64,000 nucleotides of DNA from contig NZ_CP030050.1 in NCBI RefSeq assembly GCF_015291705.1, positions 7,688,001 through 7,752,000 on the forward strand. The letters are read 5' to 3'. Source of the stretch: Bradyrhizobium arachidis (GTDB lineage: Bacteria > Pseudomonadota > Alphaproteobacteria > Rhizobiales > Xanthobacteraceae). Position numbers and translations under genes: made by a program. Positions within the stretch are counted from its first letter, which is position 1; the number at the start of each line of letters is the position of its first letter. Under the pieces are notes generated by a model. It did no database searches, was not told where the DNA came from, and saw nothing but the letters and a program-made list of their open reading frames with translations. Positions 4,963-38,277 of this stretch are shown one piece after another.

Positions 4963-5142
4963 ATGAGGAAGTTTGCGCTGGGGGACGTCGTTAACAGTGA
5001 CAAGGGCCGCCGCGGCGTCGTTCGCGCCGCGTTCAAGTCGCGGGAAGGCCAGCAGTTCTATGCCGTCGAGAAGGACGGCGCGGTTGACTATCTGGAGGAA
5101 GACCGGCTGAGCCCGGCGCCGCGCGTCGAGCTCGCGGCCTAA
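4963..5142 (+). CDS. 59-residue conserved-looking hypothetical protein
   Basis: The frame is open from 4903, but the ATG at 4963 is preferred because the product then starts with a compact ordered sequence (MRKFALGDVVNSDKGRRGVV) and the upstream codons look non-coding. It looks like a small soluble beta-rich protein, with several beta-strand-like stretches such as QFYAVEKDGAVDYLEEDRL. No catalytic motif and no recognised family. It is divergent from the dioxygenase and converges on the esterase gene 8 nt away. Confidence 0.6.
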   Translation: MRKFALGDVVNSDKGRRGVVRAAFKSREGQQFYAVEKDGAVDYLEEDRLSPAPRVELAA

Positions 5143-5149
5143 TTCCAAC

Positions 5150-6622
5150 TCATTTTCTGCCCTCACCTGCGAGCCGGTCGAGACGCTCTGACAAGGGGTC
5201 GTCTCCGCTCGCGATGCGGTCGTTCGTGATCAGGAGCAGGAGATCGCGGTCTGCGGCCGCGTCCCAGCGTGGCAAGTCGGGACCGTTGGGATCGCCGCTT
5301 TTTACAAAGTTGATCCAGTAGCTGCGCATGCGGCTTGCGATCTCTCGGTCGCGCCGTGAGAAGATGCCCGCACCCGGCACGCCTTCCACGCCGAAGATCA
5401 ACTGCAACTCCCGCCCGTGGCCGCCTTCGGGATTTGCACGCCGCGCTTCCGGCACGTAGGCGAAGCGATAGCGAAACGTCGGCGCGCCGCTTGCGGCATG
5501 CAGGCGGGCCAGCAGCCGCACCGGCTCGGAGAAGACCTTGTCGGTGTAGAACCGCGCCGCGAGCTCCGAAGGCTTGGCGAGATCGGGATAAAGCTTGCGC
5601 AACGCCTCGCTCGTGGCACCTGATGCTGCGAGCGCCTCCTTGACGTCGAGCTCGGTATCAAAACCCGTCTCGTCATCGTTCGAGCCGATGATCAGGGGAA
5701 TGCGGCTTTCATGCCCGGCCGCAAAGCCTTCGGCAACATCTCCGCTCACCAGAGCTCCATCGATGAATGGCGCAAAGCCGTGCGGCGATTTTTCGAGCAG
5801 ATGTTTTTGGGCGGCAAGCAGGCGCCGCGGCTCGGCCGCGCGCAAATCAGTCTGCGGTCCGAGCGCCGCTGCGAACTGCCGCCCCACGGCTTCCGCCTCC
5901 TGCGCCGAGCGCAGCTGGCTACGACCCGGCACCGATTGAAGGATGGCTTTCTGAAACAGATCGCGCGATGGCGCCGATAGCATCAACAGCGCGATCGACG
6001 TCGCGCCTGCGTCGCTACCAAACAGGGTGACATTGCCGGGATCGCCGCCGAAGGCCGCGATGTTGTCGTGAACCCAGTGCAGCGCCGCGATCTGGTCCAT
6101 CAGCCCGTAATTGCCGGAGCCGCCGTCCGACAATTCGGAATGGCTGAGCCAGCCGAGCGCGCCGAGGCGATAATTCACGGTCACCACGATGAGGCCGGCC
6201 TGTGCGAGCTTTGCGCCGTCGAACAGCGGATCGTTCGCCGTGCCTGAGACGAACCCGCCGCCATGGATGAAGACCATCACCGGCAGCGGGCCATCGACCC
6301 CGAACGGACGGAACACGTTCAGCGTCAGGCAATCCTCGCTCGTATCAGGCAGCGACGGCTGAAGGCACGGCGCGCCGTAATCGTAGACGGTGTGCATCTC
6401 CGAGCTCTCGACGGTCGCCTGCGGCGCCCGCCAACGTAGCGCGCCGACCGGCGGCGCCGCATAGGCCAGCCCCTTGAACGAGGCCACCTCGCCTTCGACG
6501 GCGCCCAGCATCTGCCCCTCACGCGTCAGCGCGAAGGGGAACTGTCCGACCGGCTGCGCGAAGGCGAAGCCGGCACAGCAAAGGAGCGCGGACGTCGTGA
6601 TGAGCGTGAGCAGGGACCGCAT
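5150..6622 (-). CDS. secreted type-B carboxylesterase-like protein with Asp at the nucleophile position
   Basis: About 490 residues with a Sec signal (MRSLLTLITTSALLCC...AFA). The ATG at 6622 is chosen; a TTG at 6637 would add five residues. The order of motifs is that of carboxylesterase/cholinesterase-type hydrolases: the oxyanion segment VFIHGGGFVSG, the SEDCLTLNVF signature, NYRLGALGWLS, and the acid residue in SNDDETGF. The catalytic His lies in EGGHGRELQLIFG. The nucleophile elbow reads VTLFGSDAGA (Gly202-Ser203-Asp204-Ala205-Gly206) instead of FGESAGA, so Asp204 stands where the catalytic Ser should be. The protein may be a non-hydrolytic homolog or use another mechanism; a Ser is present one position earlier. 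Confidence 0.8.
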   Translation of the reverse strand: MRSLLTLITTSALLCCAGFAFAQPVGQFPFALTREGQMLGAVEGEVASFKGLAYAAPPVGALRWRAPQATVESSEMHTVYDYGAPCLQPSLPDTSEDCLTLNVFRPFGVDGPLPVMVFIHGGGFVSGTANDPLFDGAKLAQAGLIVVTVNYRLGALGWLSHSELSDGGSGNYGLMDQIAALHWVHDNIAAFGGDPGNVTLFGSDAGATSIALLMLSAPSRDLFQKAILQSVPGRSQLRSAQEAEAVGRQFAAALGPQTDLRAAEPRRLLAAQKHLLEKSPHGFAPFIDGALVSGDVAEGFAAGHESRIPLIIGSNDDETGFDTELDVKEALAASGATSEALRKLYPDLAKPSELAARFYTDKVFSEPVRLLARLHAASGAPTFRYRFAYVPEARRANPEGGHGRELQLIFGVEGVPGAGIFSRRDREIASRMRSYWINFVKSGDPNGPDLPRWDAAADRDLLLLITNDRIASGDDPLSERLDRLAGEGRK

Positions 6623-11397: not shown

Positions 11398-11919
11398 CTA
11401 TCGCACGACATCGAGCCTGACATTGGTGATGCCCTTGTCGACCATGCCAAGCGCCTCGGCCGCGGACGGCGAGACGTCGACCACGCGTCCGCGAACGAAC
11501 GGCCCGCGATCGTTGACCCGGACGGTGACGAAGCGGCCGGAGGAAACATCGGTGACACGCAGCTTGGTGCCGAACGGCAGGGTCGGATGGGCCGCGGTCA
11601 ATTCGTTCTTGTCGAACTTCTCGCCGCTTGCGGTTTCCGTATCCGAATAGAAGCTGGCAACGCCATGCGAAGCGTTTTGCTTTGCCTCGCGAGTATTATT
11701 GGGAATGCGCGCCCGGTGGATCGGCCGCGGGCGGAATGCCGCGACCCGGTGCGGCCGCTCGATCGTGGCCTGCCGGCTGGTGCCGAGATCCGCCCTCTGG
11801 CGGCCGGCCGGCGACTGCGCGCACGCGGCGAGCGAAGCGGCACCGACGATGACCAGCAGCAGCCGGCTCGAGGTTGCCAGGGACATCCGGGCAGTTTCGG
11901 CACTTGCAATGCGAGACAT
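11398..11919 (-). CDS. rlpA: RlpA-like septal ring lipoprotein (lytic transglycosylase family)
   Basis: The ATG at 11919 is chosen for a GGAGGGCGC site. The 173-residue product has a lipoprotein signal with lipobox LAAC (lipidated Cys33), so it should be anchored in the outer membrane. The C-terminal half is a double-psi beta-barrel beginning GVASFYSDTETASGEKF and continuing LPFGTKLRVTDVSSGRFV, then VRVNDRGPFVRGRVVDVS. RlpA homologs cleave denuded glycan strands of peptidoglycan and act at septa. No SPOR domain is present, which is usual for short alphaproteobacterial forms. Activity is inferred from the family. Confidence 0.85.
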   Translation of the reverse strand: MSRIASAETARMSLATSSRLLLVIVGAASLAACAQSPAGRQRADLGTSRQATIERPHRVAAFRPRPIHRARIPNNTREAKQNASHGVASFYSDTETASGEKFDKNELTAAHPTLPFGTKLRVTDVSSGRFVTVRVNDRGPFVRGRVVDVSPSAAEALGMVDKGITNVRLDVVR

Positions 11920-12071
11920 GATGCGCCCTCCGAACAACCCCAAGTTTCGGTCGGCAATGAGGGCAGAACCTTGTCTGAACAGAAGCGGCCTTGCGGCCGC
12001 GGTCCTTTCGCGCCAGCTGTGGCCATTCCACCACAGTCGCTGTCGTGAATCGGAACAAAATTCGCGGAAAA

Positions 12072-12236
12072 TCAGCCCGATACGACCCGCAAAATGATCG
12101 GACGCGAATCCGGGCTGGGCTCACCGGTATCGGCGTCCCCCTTCAGGAGCCGCATCAGCTCGCGCCGATAGAGCCGTCGCCAGCCGGTTTTCAGGCTGGC
12201 GAGAAAGTCGAGCTCCAATTGCGTCAGTGTGCACAT
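12072..12236 (-). CDS. possible 54-residue hypothetical protein
   Basis: A short frame with coding-like third positions: ATG at 12236, TGA at 12072. The product begins MCTLTQLELDFLASLKTGWR and continues RLYRRELMRLLKGD, with a polar C-terminus. It would otherwise leave an unusually long gap between rlpA and the DUF1501 gene. The ribosome site is weak and no family is recognised. Confidence 0.4.
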   Translation of the reverse strand: MCTLTQLELDFLASLKTGWRRLYRRELMRLLKGDADTGEPSPDSRPIILRVVSG

Positions 12237-12266: not shown

Positions 12267-13517
12267 TCAGCCGACGAGGCCTCCCATCGGTTTGACCTCA
12301 GTGCTGCCGGGGAAGACTGTATCTGCCAGCACCTTCTCCTCAACGCGCAGGTGATCCCGCAGCAAGCCCTTCAGCACCGCGCGCAAATCCGTGGTTGGCT
12401 TGAGATCGCGATCCTCGAACAGCTGCGCCGGCTTCAGGCCCGGCCAGTCCGCGATCACGCGGCCGCCGGCGAGTCCGCCGCCGATGAGGAAGGCGACCGT
12501 GCCCGTGCCGTGATCCGTGCCTTGCGTACCGTTGATGCGCGCGGTGCGGCCGAACTCGGTGACGACGGCGACCACAGTCTCGTTCCATGCCTCGCCCATG
12601 TTGCTCTCGATCGCCGCGAACGCGCCGTCGAGCGCGCCGAGCAGATTGTAGAGCTGGCCGGACGCTGCGCCTTCCGCAATATGCGTGTCCCAGCCGACGA
12701 AGCCCATGGCGCCGACGCGCGGGCCGTCGGGCTTTGCGAGATAGCGCGCGGCGGTGCCGGCGGCTTCGGCGAAATAGGCGCGCACGCGCGCGATGCCCGG
12801 AGGCGCCAGGGTCGGATCGTCCGACATCGGATCGCCCGCGCCCGGTGCGCCGCCGAGCGAGGCCAGCTTCATCCGCGCCTGGAGCACGGTCGCGAGTTTC
12901 GGGTCGGTGTGCTGGTAGAGATCGAGCAGACGGTTCTGCGTGTCCTCGCTCGCCGGCAGCAATTTCTGTGGCACCCATGTCATCACCGGCGCCGAGCCGC
13001 GCACCACCAGCGGCGTCACCGAACCGATGCCGAGCGCGCGGCTGCCGCGCGGATCGACGCGCCCGCCGGATTCCATCGCAAGCAGCGCGCGGTTGAGCCA
13101 TCCCGACGCGGTCACGCCGGGTTTGGAAATGCCGCTCTCCAGCACGTCCTGGCCATCGAAATGCGAACGCTCGCGATAGGGCGTCGCGCAGGCGTGGACG
13201 ATCGCGGCCTTGCCGCTTTTGTAGAGCCGGTGCAGGTTCGGCATCGCCGGGTTGAGCGCGAAAAAGGAATCGAGCGGCAGCGCCGGCGGCTTGCCGTCCA
13301 GCAGTAGCGCGCGATCGCCGCGCAAGGAGGCCCAGTCGGGATCACCGACCGGCGCGACCGCGCCGAGGCCATCGAGCGCGCCGCGCAGCACGATGACGAG
13401 CAGACGCGGATCGCGGCCTTCGGCGCGCGCGATCCGCGGCATCTGGCTCCAGGCGAACAGCGCACCGGAGCCGACCAGAAGCTCGCGCCGCGTGGGCAGA
13501 TGATGATCGAAGCCCAT
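12267..13517 (-). CDS. DUF1501 family protein, Tat-exported
   Basis: A 416-residue protein from the ATG at 13517 with an AGAGGAGGTGAGC ribosome site. A twin-arginine leader (TRRELLVGSGALFAWSQ) predicts export in folded form. The body is alkaline-phosphatase/sulfatase-like DUF1501: LLVIVLRGALDGLGAVAP at the start, HFDGQDVLESG, FVGWDTHIAEG, VVTEFGRTARING and GTDHGTGTVAFLIGGGLAGG. DUF1501 genes almost always sit beside DUF1800 genes and the pair has no established biochemical function. Here it starts two bases after the DUF1800 stop, in one operon that carries a BlaI-type operator (15044-15073). Confidence 0.9.
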   Translation of the reverse strand: MGFDHHLPTRRELLVGSGALFAWSQMPRIARAEGRDPRLLVIVLRGALDGLGAVAPVGDPDWASLRGDRALLLDGKPPALPLDSFFALNPAMPNLHRLYKSGKAAIVHACATPYRERSHFDGQDVLESGISKPGVTASGWLNRALLAMESGGRVDPRGSRALGIGSVTPLVVRGSAPVMTWVPQKLLPASEDTQNRLLDLYQHTDPKLATVLQARMKLASLGGAPGAGDPMSDDPTLAPPGIARVRAYFAEAAGTAARYLAKPDGPRVGAMGFVGWDTHIAEGAASGQLYNLLGALDGAFAAIESNMGEAWNETVVAVVTEFGRTARINGTQGTDHGTGTVAFLIGGGLAGGRVIADWPGLKPAQLFEDRDLKPTTDLRAVLKGLLRDHLRVEEKVLADTVFPGSTEVKPMGGLVG

Positions 13518-13519
13518 GC

Positions 13520-14995
13520 TCACCTCCTCTGAAAATCCGCCGACATGAACAGCAGCGCGAGCGCCTGCTGCCGGCTCTCGGCGCGGCCGACCGCCTGCTT
13601 CACCTCGCTCGCGATCTCTGATGCGAACACGTCCTCGATGATCACTTGCGGATCGGCCATGCCGGTGATGCGCTCGGCGAAATTGTTGGCGACGTCGAGC
13701 CGCCGGCCGACGCCGTCGATCCAGCTCGCCTCGTCGTCCGGATAGCCCTTGGGCATCGACGGACGCCACAGCGGTTCGCCGAGCAGTTGCTGGCCGCCGG
13801 TGTAGCGGACGGGATCGACGAGCGTGATGCCGGTCGCACGCACCATGCCGACGACCCATTCGCCGGGACGCTTGAGCTTCGACGGCGGCCCGCGCCAGGC
13901 GTCATCCGACGACACCATCGCGATCGCGACCTGCTTGAGATCGCCTTCGGTGTCGCGAAAGGTCTTCGCCAGCTGCTCGATCAGCGCCGGCGGCGGCTCG
14001 TCCGCAACGAAGTGCCGCGCGAGCTTGGTTGCGACATGGGTTGCGGTCGCCGGATGCGCGGCGAGGTCGCGCAGCACGGCGCGGCCCTGCTCGGCGTCTT
14101 CCTGCTCGTAGCGCTTGCCGAGCACGGTCTGCCCGCCGGGCTCATGGAGCCGCGGATTGAAGGTGAACTCGCCGCCGTGAGTGGGATCGGCGCCCGGCGG
14201 CACCAGGGTCCAACCCGTCAGCACATTGGCGAAACTGATGACGTCGTCCTGGGTGTAGCCGGTGCGCACGCCGAGCGTATGCAGCTCCATGATCTCGCGC
14301 GCAAAATTCTCGTTGAGGCCGCGGCTGCGGTTGATGCCGGCGGTCGAGTTCGCGCCCATCGATTCCAGATTGTCGAGATAGAACAGCATCGCCGGATGGC
14401 CCTCGGTGGCCAGCAGCAGATCGACGAAGCGGCCGAGCGCATTGGCACGCACCGCTTCGCGCTCGTAGGCGCCGGACATGCTCTGAATCCGGTTGGCCGA
14501 GATGCAGAAATGATTTGACCAGAACCACACCAGCCGCTCGGCGAAGCCGATCTCGGCAGACAGCGCGGCCTCCGTGCGCAGCTTGGCTTCCTGCAAATAG
14601 ATCGGGCGGCCGGGATCGGGAATGGCGTCGGCAGCCTGCTTCGCCGCCATCTCGGCAGCGTCCTTCTCCTGGCCTTGCGCCGGCGCCTGCCCTTCGCTCT
14701 GCGCCTGGCTTTGCTCGCCCGCAGCCACTTGCGTCGCAGCCATCTGCTGCTTCTTGGCCTGCTGCTGCGCCTGCTTGGCGCGCGCCGTCCGCCGCGCATT
14801 GGCATCGGCCACGGTGCGATAGGCCTTCGCACTCGTCGGAAGACTGGCTGCGGCGGTCAGCGTGAGCGGCCGGTCGAGCTCTGCGATCAGCGCGCCGCGC
14901 GGGTCGGTCCCGATGGCGGCGATCGATCCCGGCCGTGGTCCCATCCCGAAGCGATGGAGCGCCAGCACGACCTCGGCCTTTGCAGCATTGCTCAT
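13520..14995 (-). CDS. DUF1800 family protein
   Basis: A 491-residue protein from the ATG at 14995 (MSNAAKAEVVLALHRFGMGP); the frame extends upstream to 15094 through implausible Cys/Arg-rich sequence, so the internal start is preferred. DUF1800 hallmarks are HRFGMGPRPG near the N-terminus, an Ala/Gln-rich low-complexity insert (KAQKQ-type, roughly residues 55-110), ERLVWFWSNHFCIS, NFAREIMELHTLGV and YTQDDVISFANVLTGWT. No signal peptide is evident. It is the first gene of the DUF1800-DUF1501 pair. The double operator 49-78 nt upstream implies repression by the adjacent BlaI-like protein. Confidence 0.9.
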   Translation of the reverse strand: MSNAAKAEVVLALHRFGMGPRPGSIAAIGTDPRGALIAELDRPLTLTAAASLPTSAKAYRTVADANARRTARAKQAQQQAKKQQMAATQVAAGEQSQAQSEGQAPAQGQEKDAAEMAAKQAADAIPDPGRPIYLQEAKLRTEAALSAEIGFAERLVWFWSNHFCISANRIQSMSGAYEREAVRANALGRFVDLLLATEGHPAMLFYLDNLESMGANSTAGINRSRGLNENFAREIMELHTLGVRTGYTQDDVISFANVLTGWTLVPPGADPTHGGEFTFNPRLHEPGGQTVLGKRYEQEDAEQGRAVLRDLAAHPATATHVATKLARHFVADEPPPALIEQLAKTFRDTEGDLKQVAIAMVSSDDAWRGPPSKLKRPGEWVVGMVRATGITLVDPVRYTGGQQLLGEPLWRPSMPKGYPDDEASWIDGVGRRLDVANNFAERITGMADPQVIIEDVFASEIASEVKQAVGRAESRQQALALLFMSADFQRR

Positions 14996-15043
14996 GACGA
15001 ATGCCCAATCTTTCGAGACTGCCCGACGGCAGCGCCATCGGCA

Positions 15044-15073
15044 GCTACGACTTGTAGTGCTACAAATCGTAGC
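15044..15073 (-). promoter_or_regulatory. double BlaI/MecI-type operator of the DUF1800 operon
   Basis: Two CTAC-N5-GTAG dyads in tandem, at 15045-15057 (CTACGACTTGTAG) and 15060-15072 (CTACAAATCGTAG). Together they form a 30-nt inverted repeat with one mismatch per arm, 49-78 nt before the DUF1800 ATG. A 23-nt part (15051-15073) matches 18 of 23 positions upstream of blaI (18088-18110). The assignment to BlaI is by location and by resemblance to TACA/TGTA operators. Confidence 0.7.
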
Positions 15074-15152
15074 ATTCAACCAATGGACGGGCAAGCGGAG
15101 ATTGGGACACCGCCGTCAAGAAATCGCGAGCCGCCGGCCGGCAGCAGCCGTC

Positions 15153-17672
15153 CTAGAAATTCGGCCCGAGCGCGATCTTGGTGATCGTGCCGTTCCTGAC
15201 GCCGATACGCCATTCCGCCGAGCCGTTGGCGAACTGGGCGACATAGATGTCGCTGTCGAGCGCGGTGACGCCGCGGAAGGAGACCGCGCGCAGCGCACCT
15301 AACCGCGCCAGGATCGCCTGGTCGAACGGCAGCTGCTGACGCGTGATGTCGGCGACCTCCGGCGTCATGTGCTCGTAGTCAGGCTGGCCCTTGCCGACGC
15401 TCTCGATGTAACGGCGCAGCATCTCCTCGCCATTGGCGATCGGAACGGCGCGGCGTGCCGCGCGGCCCGGACGCGCGCCGAGGTTCGACGCCTCGACATT
15501 GTGGAAGCGGGTCTGTCGGCCCGGCACCAGGATCTCCATGCACCGCCCCGCCTTGTCGGCGATCACCCAGGGATTGTTCACGGTGGTGGTCGCGGCCCAG
15601 GTCGCGTTGGGCCTGACGAGGCTCTGCATCCTGCGATTGCCGCTCGCATCGAGATTGAAGACCTGGATGTCGTCGCCCATCTCGTTATAGAGCATGATCC
15701 TGATCGGCGAGGTACCGGCGCGGCCGCGCACGCTCGCTTCCTCCGCGCAAGGCACGATGCCTCCGAGCTCGTCATTGCCGTCGGCCCGGAACAGCACGTC
15801 GCCGACCTTGCCGTCGGGCTCGAGCAGCAGGCGGAATTCCGCCGTGCCGTTCTCGAACTTCGCGCCATAGATGTCGTAGCCGCCGGGGCCGACGCCGCGG
15901 AAGAAGAGCGACTCGACTGCACCGAGCGCTGCGAACGTCGCCTGCGTTTCATTGAGCTGACGATGGATCTTGGCAGCCAGCGGCGCGCTCATGCGATCGT
16001 AGTTCGGCGTGCCGCGCCGCAAGTCCTCGATCCCGCGCAAGATCAAGTCCTTGCCGCCGGCGACCGGGACCTGCTCACGGAAGCGATCCGGAACTTCCGC
16101 GACACGGCGCGCGAAATCGGCCTCGATCGCCTGCGCCACCGACGCGTCGATCCGCGGCGCAAGCCGCGCGCCGAAGACCGCGTTCTGGACCAGAACCCGC
16201 GAGACCTTGGCTTGCTCGTCGCGCAGGAAGATCAGCAGATTGTCGCCGTGGATCGAGAAGACGTCGGCACCCTCGGCGAGGAGCGCCGCCCGGCCCTGCA
16301 CGGTTTCCTGTACCTGGAGACGATCGCCGTCGCGGCGCACGGTGAGCACGCGGTTCGGCGCGACCCTGTACCAGCCGACATATTGATCGAGCGCTGCGGA
16401 ATCGGCCGCCGCCGTCGGCATTTCGGCGACGCGAACCGCGCGGATGTCGCGGCCGTTCATGCGCAGCATCAGCTCGGACGAGCGGCGCTCCGCCTCGAGC
16501 TGGAACGTGATCTCGCCGGACGAAGCCGCGTAGGACGCGGTGCCGTCGCTGCCAACCGTCAGGCGCAGTCTGCGCTGCCCGGTAAGCTGACCGTAAACCT
16601 CGTCGCCCTCGCGGAAGATCGCGAACACGGAAGACGGCCCCATGGCGTAGAAATTGACGAAGGGACGGTAATGCTGGGCCGGCACCTCGCCGGTGTCCGC
16701 GGCGACGGGCGCAGGGTCGGGGCTGCGATAGGCGATCATGCCCGCGGAGACGATCACGGCCGGCACGATCGCCGCCGCGATCCACAGCCGCTTGCGCCAG
16801 CCGACGGCGACGGGCATCGCGGCTGCCGCGATGATGCGCTCGACACGGGCGCGCACGGTCGAGGCGCGCGCCATCGCGAGCTCCACCGGCCGCGGCTTCA
16901 CGGTGCTGGCGAAATCCAGCAGGATTTCGGCATAGGACAGGCGGTCGTCGATCACCTCGATCGCTTCGGCGTCGCTGATGATCTCGGCGAGCTCGGCGAG
17001 GCGCGCGAGCTGCCACCACGAGAACGGGCTGAACCAGAACACTGCGCGGTTGAGCGAAGCCAGCAGCAGGATGTAGAAATCGCAATTGGCAACATGCGCG
17101 CCTTCATGCGCGAGCACCGCGAGACGCTTCTTCGCATCCCAGGCTGCAAATTGCGGCGGCACCAGGATGGTCGAGCCGAAGGTGACAGGACCGCCGACGT
17201 CGCGGCTGACGCGCACGTCGGCTCCGATCATGGCCGCGGCGCTCACGGGCTGCGCCGCCCGCGCCAGGCGCCAGGTCAGGCAAAGGCCGATGGCGAGCCG
17301 CAACAGCAACAGGCCGGCGACGCCGGCATAGACGATGGTGGCGACCAGCCACCAATTGATCGAGAACCCGCTTCCAGGCGGCGCCACGACGGCGGCGCCC
17401 GCTGGCATTGCCAGGGCTGGCTGCGGCGTCTCCAGCATCGAGATGTCAACTGGGGCGACATCGTCCGGCATGGGCATCGGCAGAGGCAGCCGCGTGATGG
17501 TCAGCGTCGGCCAATGCATCACGAAAGGCATCGCCAGCGATGCCAGCAGCACGACGATCCACGCCGTCATGTGGACGTGTGGATTGCGCACGCGAAAAAG
17601 ATAGAGACCGAACCAGACGACGCCTCCCAGCACAAGGGAGCGCAGCGCCGCCTCCGCCAGAGTTGCGATCAT
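15153..17672 (-). CDS. BlaR1-like M56 metallopeptidase sensor with VHL-beta-like and duplicated C-terminal domains
   Basis: An 839-residue membrane protein. The N-terminal about 320 residues are BlaR1/MecR1-like: hydrophobic helices near 12-30, 38-54 and 105-130, a zinc-peptidase motif HEGAH (189-193), the AEIISDAEA segment carrying the likely third ligand, and another helix near 297-315. No penicillin-binding sensor domain follows. Instead there are beta-rich segments (YVGWYRVAPNRVLTVRRDGD region), then a roughly 95-residue unit at about 536-631 repeated at about 742-839 (shared pattern G-P-Y-M, QA, LGA, FRGV, DIY, F-NG-AE-R). Between them (about 654-725) is a segment resembling the VHL beta domain (MLYNEMGDD...PW-I-D-AGRCMEI). 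The start overlaps the blaI stop (ATGA). The family cleaves a repressor after sensing an external signal; the signal here is unknown. Confidence 0.8.
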   Translation of the reverse strand: MIATLAEAALRSLVLGGVVWFGLYLFRVRNPHVHMTAWIVVLLASLAMPFVMHWPTLTITRLPLPMPMPDDVAPVDISMLETPQPALAMPAGAAVVAPPGSGFSINWWLVATIVYAGVAGLLLLRLAIGLCLTWRLARAAQPVSAAAMIGADVRVSRDVGGPVTFGSTILVPPQFAAWDAKKRLAVLAHEGAHVANCDFYILLLASLNRAVFWFSPFSWWQLARLAELAEIISDAEAIEVIDDRLSYAEILLDFASTVKPRPVELAMARASTVRARVERIIAAAAMPVAVGWRKRLWIAAAIVPAVIVSAGMIAYRSPDPAPVAADTGEVPAQHYRPFVNFYAMGPSSVFAIFREGDEVYGQLTGQRRLRLTVGSDGTASYAASSGEITFQLEAERRSSELMLRMNGRDIRAVRVAEMPTAAADSAALDQYVGWYRVAPNRVLTVRRDGDRLQVQETVQGRAALLAEGADVFSIHGDNLLIFLRDEQAKVSRVLVQNAVFGARLAPRIDASVAQAIEADFARRVAEVPDRFREQVPVAGGKDLILRGIEDLRRGTPNYDRMSAPLAAKIHRQLNETQATFAALGAVESLFFRGVGPGGYDIYGAKFENGTAEFRLLLEPDGKVGDVLFRADGNDELGGIVPCAEEASVRGRAGTSPIRIMLYNEMGDDIQVFNLDASGNRRMQSLVRPNATWAATTTVNNPWVIADKAGRCMEILVPGRQTRFHNVEASNLGARPGRAARRAVPIANGEEMLRRYIESVGKGQPDYEHMTPEVADITRQQLPFDQAILARLGALRAVSFRGVTALDSDIYVAQFANGSAEWRIGVRNGTITKIALGPNF

Positions 17673-18061
17673 TCTTTCTTCACTCCCCTCGCCTTCTTCG
17701 CCTTGGCCACCTGGTCGGCCAACGTGCGCAGCTGCTGCTGGTCGAGCATCGCATTGTCCACCATGCCGACGAGGACCTCCTCGATCGAGCCGTTGCAGAA
17801 CCAGTCGACGATGCGCTGCACGGCCTTGGCCGCGACCTTCGCGCGTGGTTCGGCGGCGGTGTAGACATAGGTCCGTCCGTCCACGGTGTGGTTAGCATAG
17901 CCTTTTTCCTCGAGCCGGCGCAGCACGGTGCGCACGGTCGACTCCTTCAGGCGCCGCGACAGCCGCTCACGCACGATTTCGGCCGTGACAGGACCATGGG
18001 CCCAAACCAATTGCATGACCTCGCGCTCGAGGTCTCCCAGTTCGGGCAAACGATCGTCCAT
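17669..18061 (-). CDS. blaI: BlaI/MecI/CopY family winged-helix repressor
   Basis: A 130-residue protein with the BlaI winged helix: LGDLEREVMQLVWAHGPVT, then ESTVRTVLRRLEEKGYANHTV followed by a wing GRTYVYTAAEP, and a C-terminal dimerisation region (VLVGMVDNAMLDQQQLRTL). BlaI dimers repress until a partner BlaR1 protease cleaves them in the C-terminal half. The gene overlaps the BlaR1-like gene by 4 nt. A candidate operator lies 27-49 nt upstream, implying autorepression. No beta-lactamase is nearby; the only other gene set with the operator is DUF1800-DUF1501. Confidence 0.9.
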   Translation of the reverse strand: MDDRLPELGDLEREVMQLVWAHGPVTAEIVRERLSRRLKESTVRTVLRRLEEKGYANHTVDGRTYVYTAAEPRAKVAAKAVQRIVDWFCNGSIEEVLVGMVDNAMLDQQQLRTLADQVAKAKKARGVKKE

Positions 18062-18087
18062 GGCGGCTTACCTTGCGGCTTGAGTTT

Positions 18088-18110
18088 CTTGTAACGCTAC
18101 AGATTGTCGC
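18088..18110 (-). promoter_or_regulatory. BlaI-type operator upstream of blaI
   Basis: The site contains CTTGTA, then GCTACA, then ATTGTCGC. It aligns without gaps to 15051-15073 at 18 of 23 positions and keeps a degenerate CTAC-N5-GT(A/C)G dyad at 18097-18109. It lies 27-49 nt before the blaI ATG, where a repressor would block its own promoter. Confidence 0.6.
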
Positions 18111-18234
18111 ATATAGCGCCGCGCGGCACAACGGCGATTCCACCTGGAATGGTGGTGGCGGGCTGGCCTGACGCCGAACTGAAAACGACTGAGGCGTCGG
18201 GTGGGCTTTCAATCTGGCCTGCAGGCGTGCCTTG

Positions 18235-20082: not shown

Positions 20083-20450
20083 GAATTCCCCCAGGGAGTT
20101 TCTTATTGAAGGGCGGCCATTGTCGGCCAGTGCTCACCCGAGATCAAGGACGCAGGCATCCCGGCATCGATTGTGATCTCGCACCGCAGCGAGGTTTTCG
20201 AGAACGATCCGCAGTTGCGCGCGCAAGTTAACACGGCGACGTTTTTGCTCCTGATGATGAGGGATTGAGGGGCGGCCTGCCCTCTCCCCCCGTCATTCCC
20301 CGGGGCGCGACGAAGTCGCGAACCCGGAATCCATCGATCCGCAGATACCGCCGCCGCAATGGATTCCGGGCTCGCGCTGACGCGCGCCCCGGAATGACGA
20401 GAAAAACCTCACAAACCATCAGGAAGACGAAGGACTATACGGCGACAACG
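20083..20450. other. 368-nt intergenic region with a dispersed repeat
   Basis: It contains the upstream region of the malic enzyme gene, a coding-like but start-less plus-strand frame at 20110-20268 (see findings), and a dispersed inverted repeat at 20291-20399. No other gene is seen. Confidence 0.5.
20291..20399. repeat. dispersed inverted repeat, CGTCATTCCGGG family
   Basis: Outer arms CGTCATTCCCCGGGGCGCG and CGCGCGCCCCGGAATGACG enclose inner arms GGAATCCAT/ATGGATTCC. Relatives in this window lie at 24092-24121, 46009-46048, 53258-53404 and 55284-55366. Confidence 0.7.
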
Positions 20451-38110: not shown

Positions 38111-38277
38111 CTCTTACCCTCCCCTGGAGGGGGAGGGTCGGCTCACATGAGCGCAGCGAAATGTGAGACGGGATGGGGTGACAGGCTCTCCAATGAGGCG
38201 GTGCCCGTGTTGAGAGATCACCCCACCTCGCTCGCGCTTCGCGCGATCGCCCCTCCCCCTCCAGGGGAGGGTAAGAG
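38111..38277. repeat. 167-nt MITE-like element with perfect 27-bp terminal inverted repeats
   Basis: The left arm (38111-38137, beginning CTCTTACCCTCCCCTGGAGG) and the right arm (38251-38277, ending CCAGGGGAGGGTAAGAG) are exact reverse complements. The interior holds no gene. The element ends 16 nt before the ATG of the next ABC gene and makes up nearly all of the intergenic space with the divergent transporter. No target duplication was identified. Confidence 0.75.

Follow-up and report, generated by a model that had tools for sequence, protein, structure and literature searches.

A BlaI/BlaR1-like switch predicted to control a DUF1800-DUF1501 operon in Bradyrhizobium arachidis

In the BlaI/BlaR1 and MecI/MecR1 systems of Staphylococcus aureus, the receptor contains a penicillin-binding domain, while the receptor described here carries a DUF3471 sensor. 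The Mycobacterium tuberculosis repressor BlaI (Rv1846c), whose regulon is the subject of work by Sala and colleagues from 2009, reportedly has targets beyond a beta-lactamase, and these are others than those found here. Proteins of the families DUF1800 and DUF1501 form a common bacterial pair of unknown function. Passages of PMC5122149 describe DUF1800-DUF1501 operons that adjoin bacterial chitin synthase genes and report a twin-arginine motif on DUF1501; the pair and the motif are the same as in the present case, these passages name neither BlaI nor BlaR1, and the operon and the twin-arginine translocation (Tat) motif of DUF1501 are with them already in print. Moreover, PMC6653060 names both families where it tabulates type VI secretion clusters. 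Here, we analyse a stretch of 64,000 nucleotides from Bradyrhizobium arachidis (contig NZ_CP030050.1, positions 7,688,001 to 7,752,000; the window in the following), in which a blaI-blaR1-like gene pair precedes a DUF1800-DUF1501 operon. A conserved, promoter-overlapping element makes it highly probable that the locus encodes a BlaR1/BlaI-type proteolytic switch with a predicted regulon that includes DUF1800-DUF1501, and such a dedicated switch makes the function of this pair testable.

The window is part of a genome of 9.87 Mb on a single contig. A Pfam search of the window proteins identified, all on the minus strand and in the order blaI-blaR1-[157 bp]-DUF1800-DUF1501, the gene blaI for a Penicillinase_R repressor of 130 amino acids (17669..18061; PF03965, E 5.1e-29), a blaR1-like gene for an M56 membrane protease of 839 amino acids with a DUF3471 sensor (15153..17672; PF05569 and PF11954), the gene of a DUF1800 protein of 491 amino acids (13520..14995; PF08811, E 2.4e-115) and that of a DUF1501 protein of 416 amino acids with an Arg-Arg motif near its start (12267..13517; PF07394 and predicted fold). 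The 157-bp gap contains a double site, the predicted BlaI operator of the DUF1800 operon (15044..15075, minus strand), and the predicted operator of blaI itself is located at 18091..18112 (minus strand). A first-pass annotation had reported that 18088-18110 equals 15051-15073 at 18 of 23 positions, which is exact, and had described the latter site as a double CTAC-N5-GTAG operator; 15044-15073 indeed reads CTAC-N5-GTAG-TG-CTAC-N5-GTAG and is self-reverse-complementary at 26 of 30 positions. The next-best stretch on both strands of the window has fewer than 16 of 23 identities to either site, barring the palindrome at 15044. The genome scan for the operator that the annotation had proposed, performed over all 9.87 Mb with a 23-mer covering both sites at up to 3 mismatches, recovers both of them (one on both strands) and two extra places, each with 3 mismatches; the backwards-read control pattern gives two places. 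A chance resemblance of the two sites was ruled out by the pattern searches in the window, in the genome and in multiple genomes.

Both sites fit one element, GYKAC-N5-GTARC-RYTAC(-N5-GTARC), which overlaps the promoter -10 box. To 60 stretches fetched from Bradyrhizobium genomes we added the window, placed 58 blaI and 43 DUF1800 starts (G113, G097, G096 and G011 are not included, and in G101 no blaI start could be placed) and searched the 250 bp upstream of each start for the closest match to ATGYKACRNTNNGTAGCRYTAC. Ahead of blaI, 37, 12, 5, 3 and 1 sites show 0, 1, 2, 3 and 4 mismatches, i.e., 54 of 58 have at most two; ahead of DUF1800 the corresponding numbers are 28, 12, 1, 1 and 1, with at most two in 41 of 43. 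Among sites that have complete flanks and no more than 2 mismatches, half-sites 1-4 are present in 41, 41, 41 and 34 of 41 DUF1800 sites, which consist of two abutting 15-bp palindromes, and in 53, 53, 51 and 0 of 53 blaI sites, which consist of one palindrome and a half-site. The -10 hexamer falls within half-site 1, and a -35 hexamer starting with TTG stands 16 or 17 bp ahead of it at 94 of 95 sites (with 17 bp as the best spacing in 92), compared to a background of 21/972 and 16/738 offsets; owing to the relatedness of the genomes, the P values of this comparison are overstated. In the window, the boxes on the minus strand are GACAAT (18103-18108) and TTGTGC (18126-18131) for blaI, and TACGAT (15066-15071) and TTGCCC (15089-15094) for DUF1800. 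Such a geometry belongs to repressors that act by blocking RNA polymerase.

The distribution of the element follows that of the repressor. A BlaI match at E <= 0.001 was found in 63 of 146 Bradyrhizobium genomes (the one in G011 is only 31% identical), and the 44 genomes with a close DUF1800 orthologue (72-100% identity) are all among these 63. Any DUF1800 is present in 136 of the 146 genomes, most of which have a more distant copy (about 45-49%); the second DUF1800 of the B. arachidis genome has no site within 300 bp upstream (best match 7 mismatches). The element occurs at up to 1 mismatch in 55 of 146 genomes, namely in 54 of the 63 BlaI-matching genomes and, among the other 83, in G108 alone, and the search at this threshold yielded 103 hits vs 16 for the backwards-read pattern. 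It is also retained where the genes have moved apart: in G087 a single contig of 8.17 Mb carries the DUF1800 operon at 31 kb and blaI-blaR1 at 7.8 Mb (a distance of about 0.4 Mb should the contig be a closed circle), other genes flank each locus, and both loci retain a 0-mismatch site. In G069, blaI-blaR1 and DUF1800 are on separate contigs, but the former stands alone on only 3264 bases, so that an assembly gap is possible. The weakest DUF1800 site of the set, with 4 mismatches, belongs to G101, in which blaI is split between frames; perhaps the site decayed after loss of the repressor, or the split is a sequencing error, and this is a single case. In L128 and L129, BlaI is retained and blaR1 is mostly or wholly missing. 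BlaI as a general partner of DUF1800 was ruled out, as 0 of 46 non-Bradyrhizobium DUF1800 loci (L231-L278 minus L232 and L235; the fetched stretches, some of just 3.5-9 kb) show BlaI or BlaR1, and the two nearest of these loci have no site (best 7-8 mismatches). As the element tracks BlaI, is kept at a moved DUF1800 operon and precedes further hydrolase genes (see below), the earlier prediction that the BlaI/BlaR1-like pair controls the DUF1800 operon is supported by the comparison of the 146 genomes, strongly so for control by BlaI.

The encoded proteins agree with such a switch and depart from the staphylococcal one in the sensor. BlaI reaches 101 bits with PF03965 (cut-off 22.6), matches solved BlaI/MecI chains and is the single match in this genome, and LKESTVRTVLRRLE is invariant across 58 relatives, the window included; the CopY model remains below its cut-off on this protein (72 bits vs 121.95). 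In the BlaR1-like protein, the M56 domain scores 49.7 bits with PF05569 (cut-off 31) and has the motifs HEGAH at residue 189 and EIISD at 230; HExxH is found in 55 sequences listed of 56 and ExxxD in 56 of 56. Neither Pfam nor NCBIfam detects a penicillin-binding (class-D-like) sensor in it, DUF3471 being the only domain outside M56, the NCBIfam BlaR1 model scores 31 bits vs a cut-off of 400 and covers residues 154-283 only, and no solved chain matches the protein by sequence. The structure model is poor (mean predicted local distance difference test, pLDDT, of 53.2), with many unrelated propeller chains listed by Foldseek; a closer look at the matches points to the M56 part and to a lipocalin-like barrel, which in the model resembles accessory and not catalytic domains. 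The likeness of this sensor barrel is to the accessory barrel of the penicillin-binding-protein (PBP)-type D-aminopeptidase and its relatives (1ei5, 7spn, 8fek, 6ksv), but, in contrast to these enzymes, Pfam detects no serine hydrolase domain in the BlaR1-like protein. This suggests that the BlaR1 architecture is that of a modular receptor with an exchangeable sensor, and M56 proteins that bear the name 'antirepressor regulating drug resistance' may be unrelated to drug resistance.

By analogy to the BlaR1 family and from the conserved sites, the following mechanism can be proposed. Dimers of BlaI would bind to the 15-bp palindromes GYKAC-N5-GTARC and block transcription, at the repressor's own promoter on a palindrome plus half-site over the -10 box and at the promoter of DUF1800, DUF1501 and a small open reading frame (ORF) on two abutting palindromes over the -10 box. 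Binding of an extracytoplasmic ligand to the DUF3471 sensor would activate the M56 protease, which would cut BlaI and free both promoters. The derepressed products would be hydrolases, namely DUF1501, partnered by DUF1800, as well as an S9 peptidase or a serine hydrolase of the beta-lactamase fold in some relatives; with DUF1800-DUF1501, the small ORF, S9 peptidase and PF00144 hydrolases, the predicted targets are unlike those in Staphylococcus aureus.

Several observations weigh against this model. The genes blaI and DUF1800 are mostly adjacent and the genomes are related, so that their co-occurrence partly reflects linkage; the 146 genomes share ancestry and are not independent cases. In one BlaI clade (L131-L133, 66-69% identical) the blaI site has 3-4 mismatches and no site follows blaR1. 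A scan for a second site past blaR1 covered 14 Bradyrhizobium loci that match blaI and blaR1 but carry neither the pair nor a serine hydrolase; ten of them have a clear one, that of L130 is weak and on the opposite strand (score 10.8) and, as said, L131-L133 have none. The aligned cleavage place in BlaI is a Met in 55 of 58 and an Ile in 3 of 58 sequences, and not the Phe expected from Staphylococcus aureus, a residue near-invariant after the scissile bond of BlaI/MecI repressors according to passages of PMC9834060. Finally, the spacing within the palindrome is 5 vs 4 in the staphylococcal case (as given in part of PMC7253601); the TACA-NN-TGTA spacing of BlaI/MecI operators is not seen, and YKAC and GTAR half-sites are present at a distance of 5. 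CopY/CopR-type operators (RNYKACANNTGTMRNY), as far as passages of PMC7253601 describe them, share the half-sites YKAC and GTMR and the presence of several operators per promoter with the sites reported here, and have one base fewer between the half-sites. These departures in spacing and cut residue are alone no argument against a working switch. More informative than the lack of a beta-lactamase in the window is that the BlaR1-like protein, judged by its sequence, has no recognisable beta-lactam sensor, which the first-pass annotation did not mention.

Other explanations of these data were considered. That the element only marks a class of promoter, or is bound by some regulator other than BlaI, would account for the -35 and -10 boxes lying within it; however, conservation extends over three to four half-sites, of which two or three lie beyond the -10 box, the element is present at 1 mismatch in just one of the 83 BlaI-less genomes, and its position before blaI itself is expected of an autoregulated repressor, which makes this explanation very unlikely. 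An ordinary beta-lactam-responsive BlaR1/BlaI system, which senses beta-lactams or wall damage and whose targets mend the cell wall or degrade the drug, fits the sequence families of both regulatory proteins, the PF00144 hydrolases that some relatives have at the site or locus, and the PF03330 gene downstream of the small ORF (11398-11922, minus strand, by Pfam), which we take to be RlpA-like. Since no penicillin-binding domain was found by Pfam or NCBIfam, beta-lactam sensing is lowered as the default; the modelled sensor barrel is like accessory barrels and unlike catalytic domains, the predicted targets in the window have no beta-lactamase domain in Pfam, and we regard this system as unlikely. 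The statement of the first-pass annotation that no beta-lactamase is involved holds within the window and is to be qualified for those relatives that have PF00144 serine hydrolases at the same site or locus; these are assigned to the beta-lactamase family by their domain.

Slightly less improbable, though still rather doubtful, is a scenario in which the small ORF is the real target and DUF1800-DUF1501 is a passenger that was inserted between operator and small ORF in some lineages. It draws on 10 of the 14 pair-less loci mentioned above (L118, L120-L127 and L303), where a clear second site persists just past blaR1, with scores of 11.6-25.1 compared to at most 6.6 for their own shuffles, and the small ORF follows further on (16 of 21 loci in the whole scan score above their own highest shuffle); in L300, from another genus, a small-ORF-like ORF, read by eye, also follows the site. 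However, sites with the pair are stronger, half-site 4 being present in 34 of 41, the site precedes S9-DUF1800 or DUF1800-DUF1501 in two other genera, and the small-ORF match is only weak or short in some pair-bearing genomes. The proteolytic switch with DUF1800-DUF1501 in its predicted regulon remains our favoured explanation. As to its purpose, the guess, to which the data lend weak support, is that the compound sensed and removed by the system lies outside the cytoplasm and is peptide-like or an ester. More specifically, as a possible though not probable reading, a receptor with a lipocalin-like barrel of the D-aminopeptidase type in place of the penicillin-binding sensor may sense a peptide-like ligand other than a beta-lactam, for example a D-amino-acid wall peptide or a competitor's lipopeptide, and control hydrolases for the removal of compounds of this kind (DUF1501 together with DUF1800, S9 peptidase, and a serine hydrolase that in one relative shares the DUF3471 barrel of the receptor). 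If true, this would be the first inducible function for DUF1800-DUF1501.

Further predicted targets come from nine element hits away from blaI and DUF1800 genes in the search of the 146 genomes. Five of them (G135, G156, G070, G152 and G016) precede the same S9 peptidase gene. Eight of the 146 genomes, each of them with BlaI and none of them that of B. arachidis, have a close S9 orthologue (72-100%); seven of the eight have the element just upstream, two of them at 2 mismatches (read by eye), and the eighth (G121) is the third gene of a DUF1800-DUF1501 operon, with a 4-bp overlap. The remaining four are in G117, G013, G020 and G108; the one in G117 stands ahead of a PF00144 serine hydrolase whose start is Tat-like and which occupies the place of DUF1800-DUF1501. 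At L119 (3649-4938, minus strand), a PF00144 serine hydrolase with a Tat-like start replaces DUF1800-DUF1501 under the same site, and its N-terminus MSNSAKA resembles the DUF1800 start. PF00144-type hydrolases are also located between blaR1 and DUF1800 in L076, L104, L217 and L113 and on the opposite strand in L112 (the Pfam check covered L076, L112, L113 and L119). In G013 (L170, 2733-3587, plus strand), a 0-mismatch site stands beside an exported-looking protein with a HELSH motif and a weak Peptidase_MA match below the cut-off.

A wider search of 296 genomes of the family gave a BlaI match in 19, of which 9 are outside Bradyrhizobium, and eight of these were examined. L295 (G235) has the order blaI-blaR1-site-S9-DUF1800, cut by the contig end, and L297 (G261), likewise from another genus, has blaI-blaR1-site-DUF1800-DUF1501. 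The S9 peptidase of L295 (1340-3370, minus strand), between blaI-blaR1 and DUF1800, has a Tat-like start. G261 contains an extra 1-mismatch site 46 bp ahead of a PF00144 serine hydrolase that bears DUF3471, a domain common to this target hydrolase and the BlaR1-like sensor. As the eight genomes have 13 pattern hits at up to 2 mismatches vs 10 for the backwards control, a single weak hit in them means little. The single sites in G261 (LanC-like), G013, G020, G108 and G173 may be due to chance; the LanC-like gene of G261 (PF05147; L320, 2144-3334, plus strand) lies 29 bp past a 2-mismatch site. In another genus, L301 has an exported-looking ORF (5109-5873, oriented) beside blaI-blaR1 that by eye is like a standalone DUF3471 sensor. 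In L300, blaR1 and a 3-mismatch site are followed, from 7546 on (oriented), by the small-ORF-like ORF and then by genes that by eye we take to be of the resistance-nodulation-division (RND) efflux type.

Within the operon, DUF1501 is probably exported by the Tat pathway, and its R10 and R11 are invariant in 32 sequences. The predicted structure models as an alkaline-phosphatase-superfamily fold, and D49, S118, H119, D277, H279, D335 and H336 are invariant in the same number of sequences; these Asp, His and Ser residues may correspond to the metal ligands and nucleophile of the superfamily. Profile searches of the Protein Data Bank (PDB) with DUF1501 and DUF1800 returned nothing, and single-sequence searches returned only matches with E above 0.1. 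The open-access library searched, from which most subscription journals are absent, mentions DUF1800 together with DUF1501 in just two papers and contained nothing that links DUF1501 with BlaI, nothing that joins DUF1501 with Bradyrhizobium and nothing that brings BlaI, BlaR1, operator and M56 together; for Bradyrhizobium with BlaI and BlaR1 it offered only a review, the Bradyrhizobium passages of which concern FixK2.

The DUF1800 operon probably extends beyond 12267 into the small ORF of 54 codons (12072..12236, minus strand; MCTLTQLELDFLASLKTGWRRLYRREL...), which starts 30 bp past DUF1501 and was recognised from homologues and coding constraint, and upstream of the PF03330 gene. It has no Pfam match. 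Matches to it are present in 53 of 146 Bradyrhizobium genomes, 52 of which have BlaI, with a weak match (E 7.4e-5) in the exception G075, and differences per site amount to 0.088, 0.066 and 0.203 at the first, second and third codon position (28 sequences). In G033, a stop codon lies within the small-ORF match. Elsewhere in the window, 20287-20399 and 38112-38276 match other loci of a relative and are partly self-matching when inverted; they are probably interspersed repeats.

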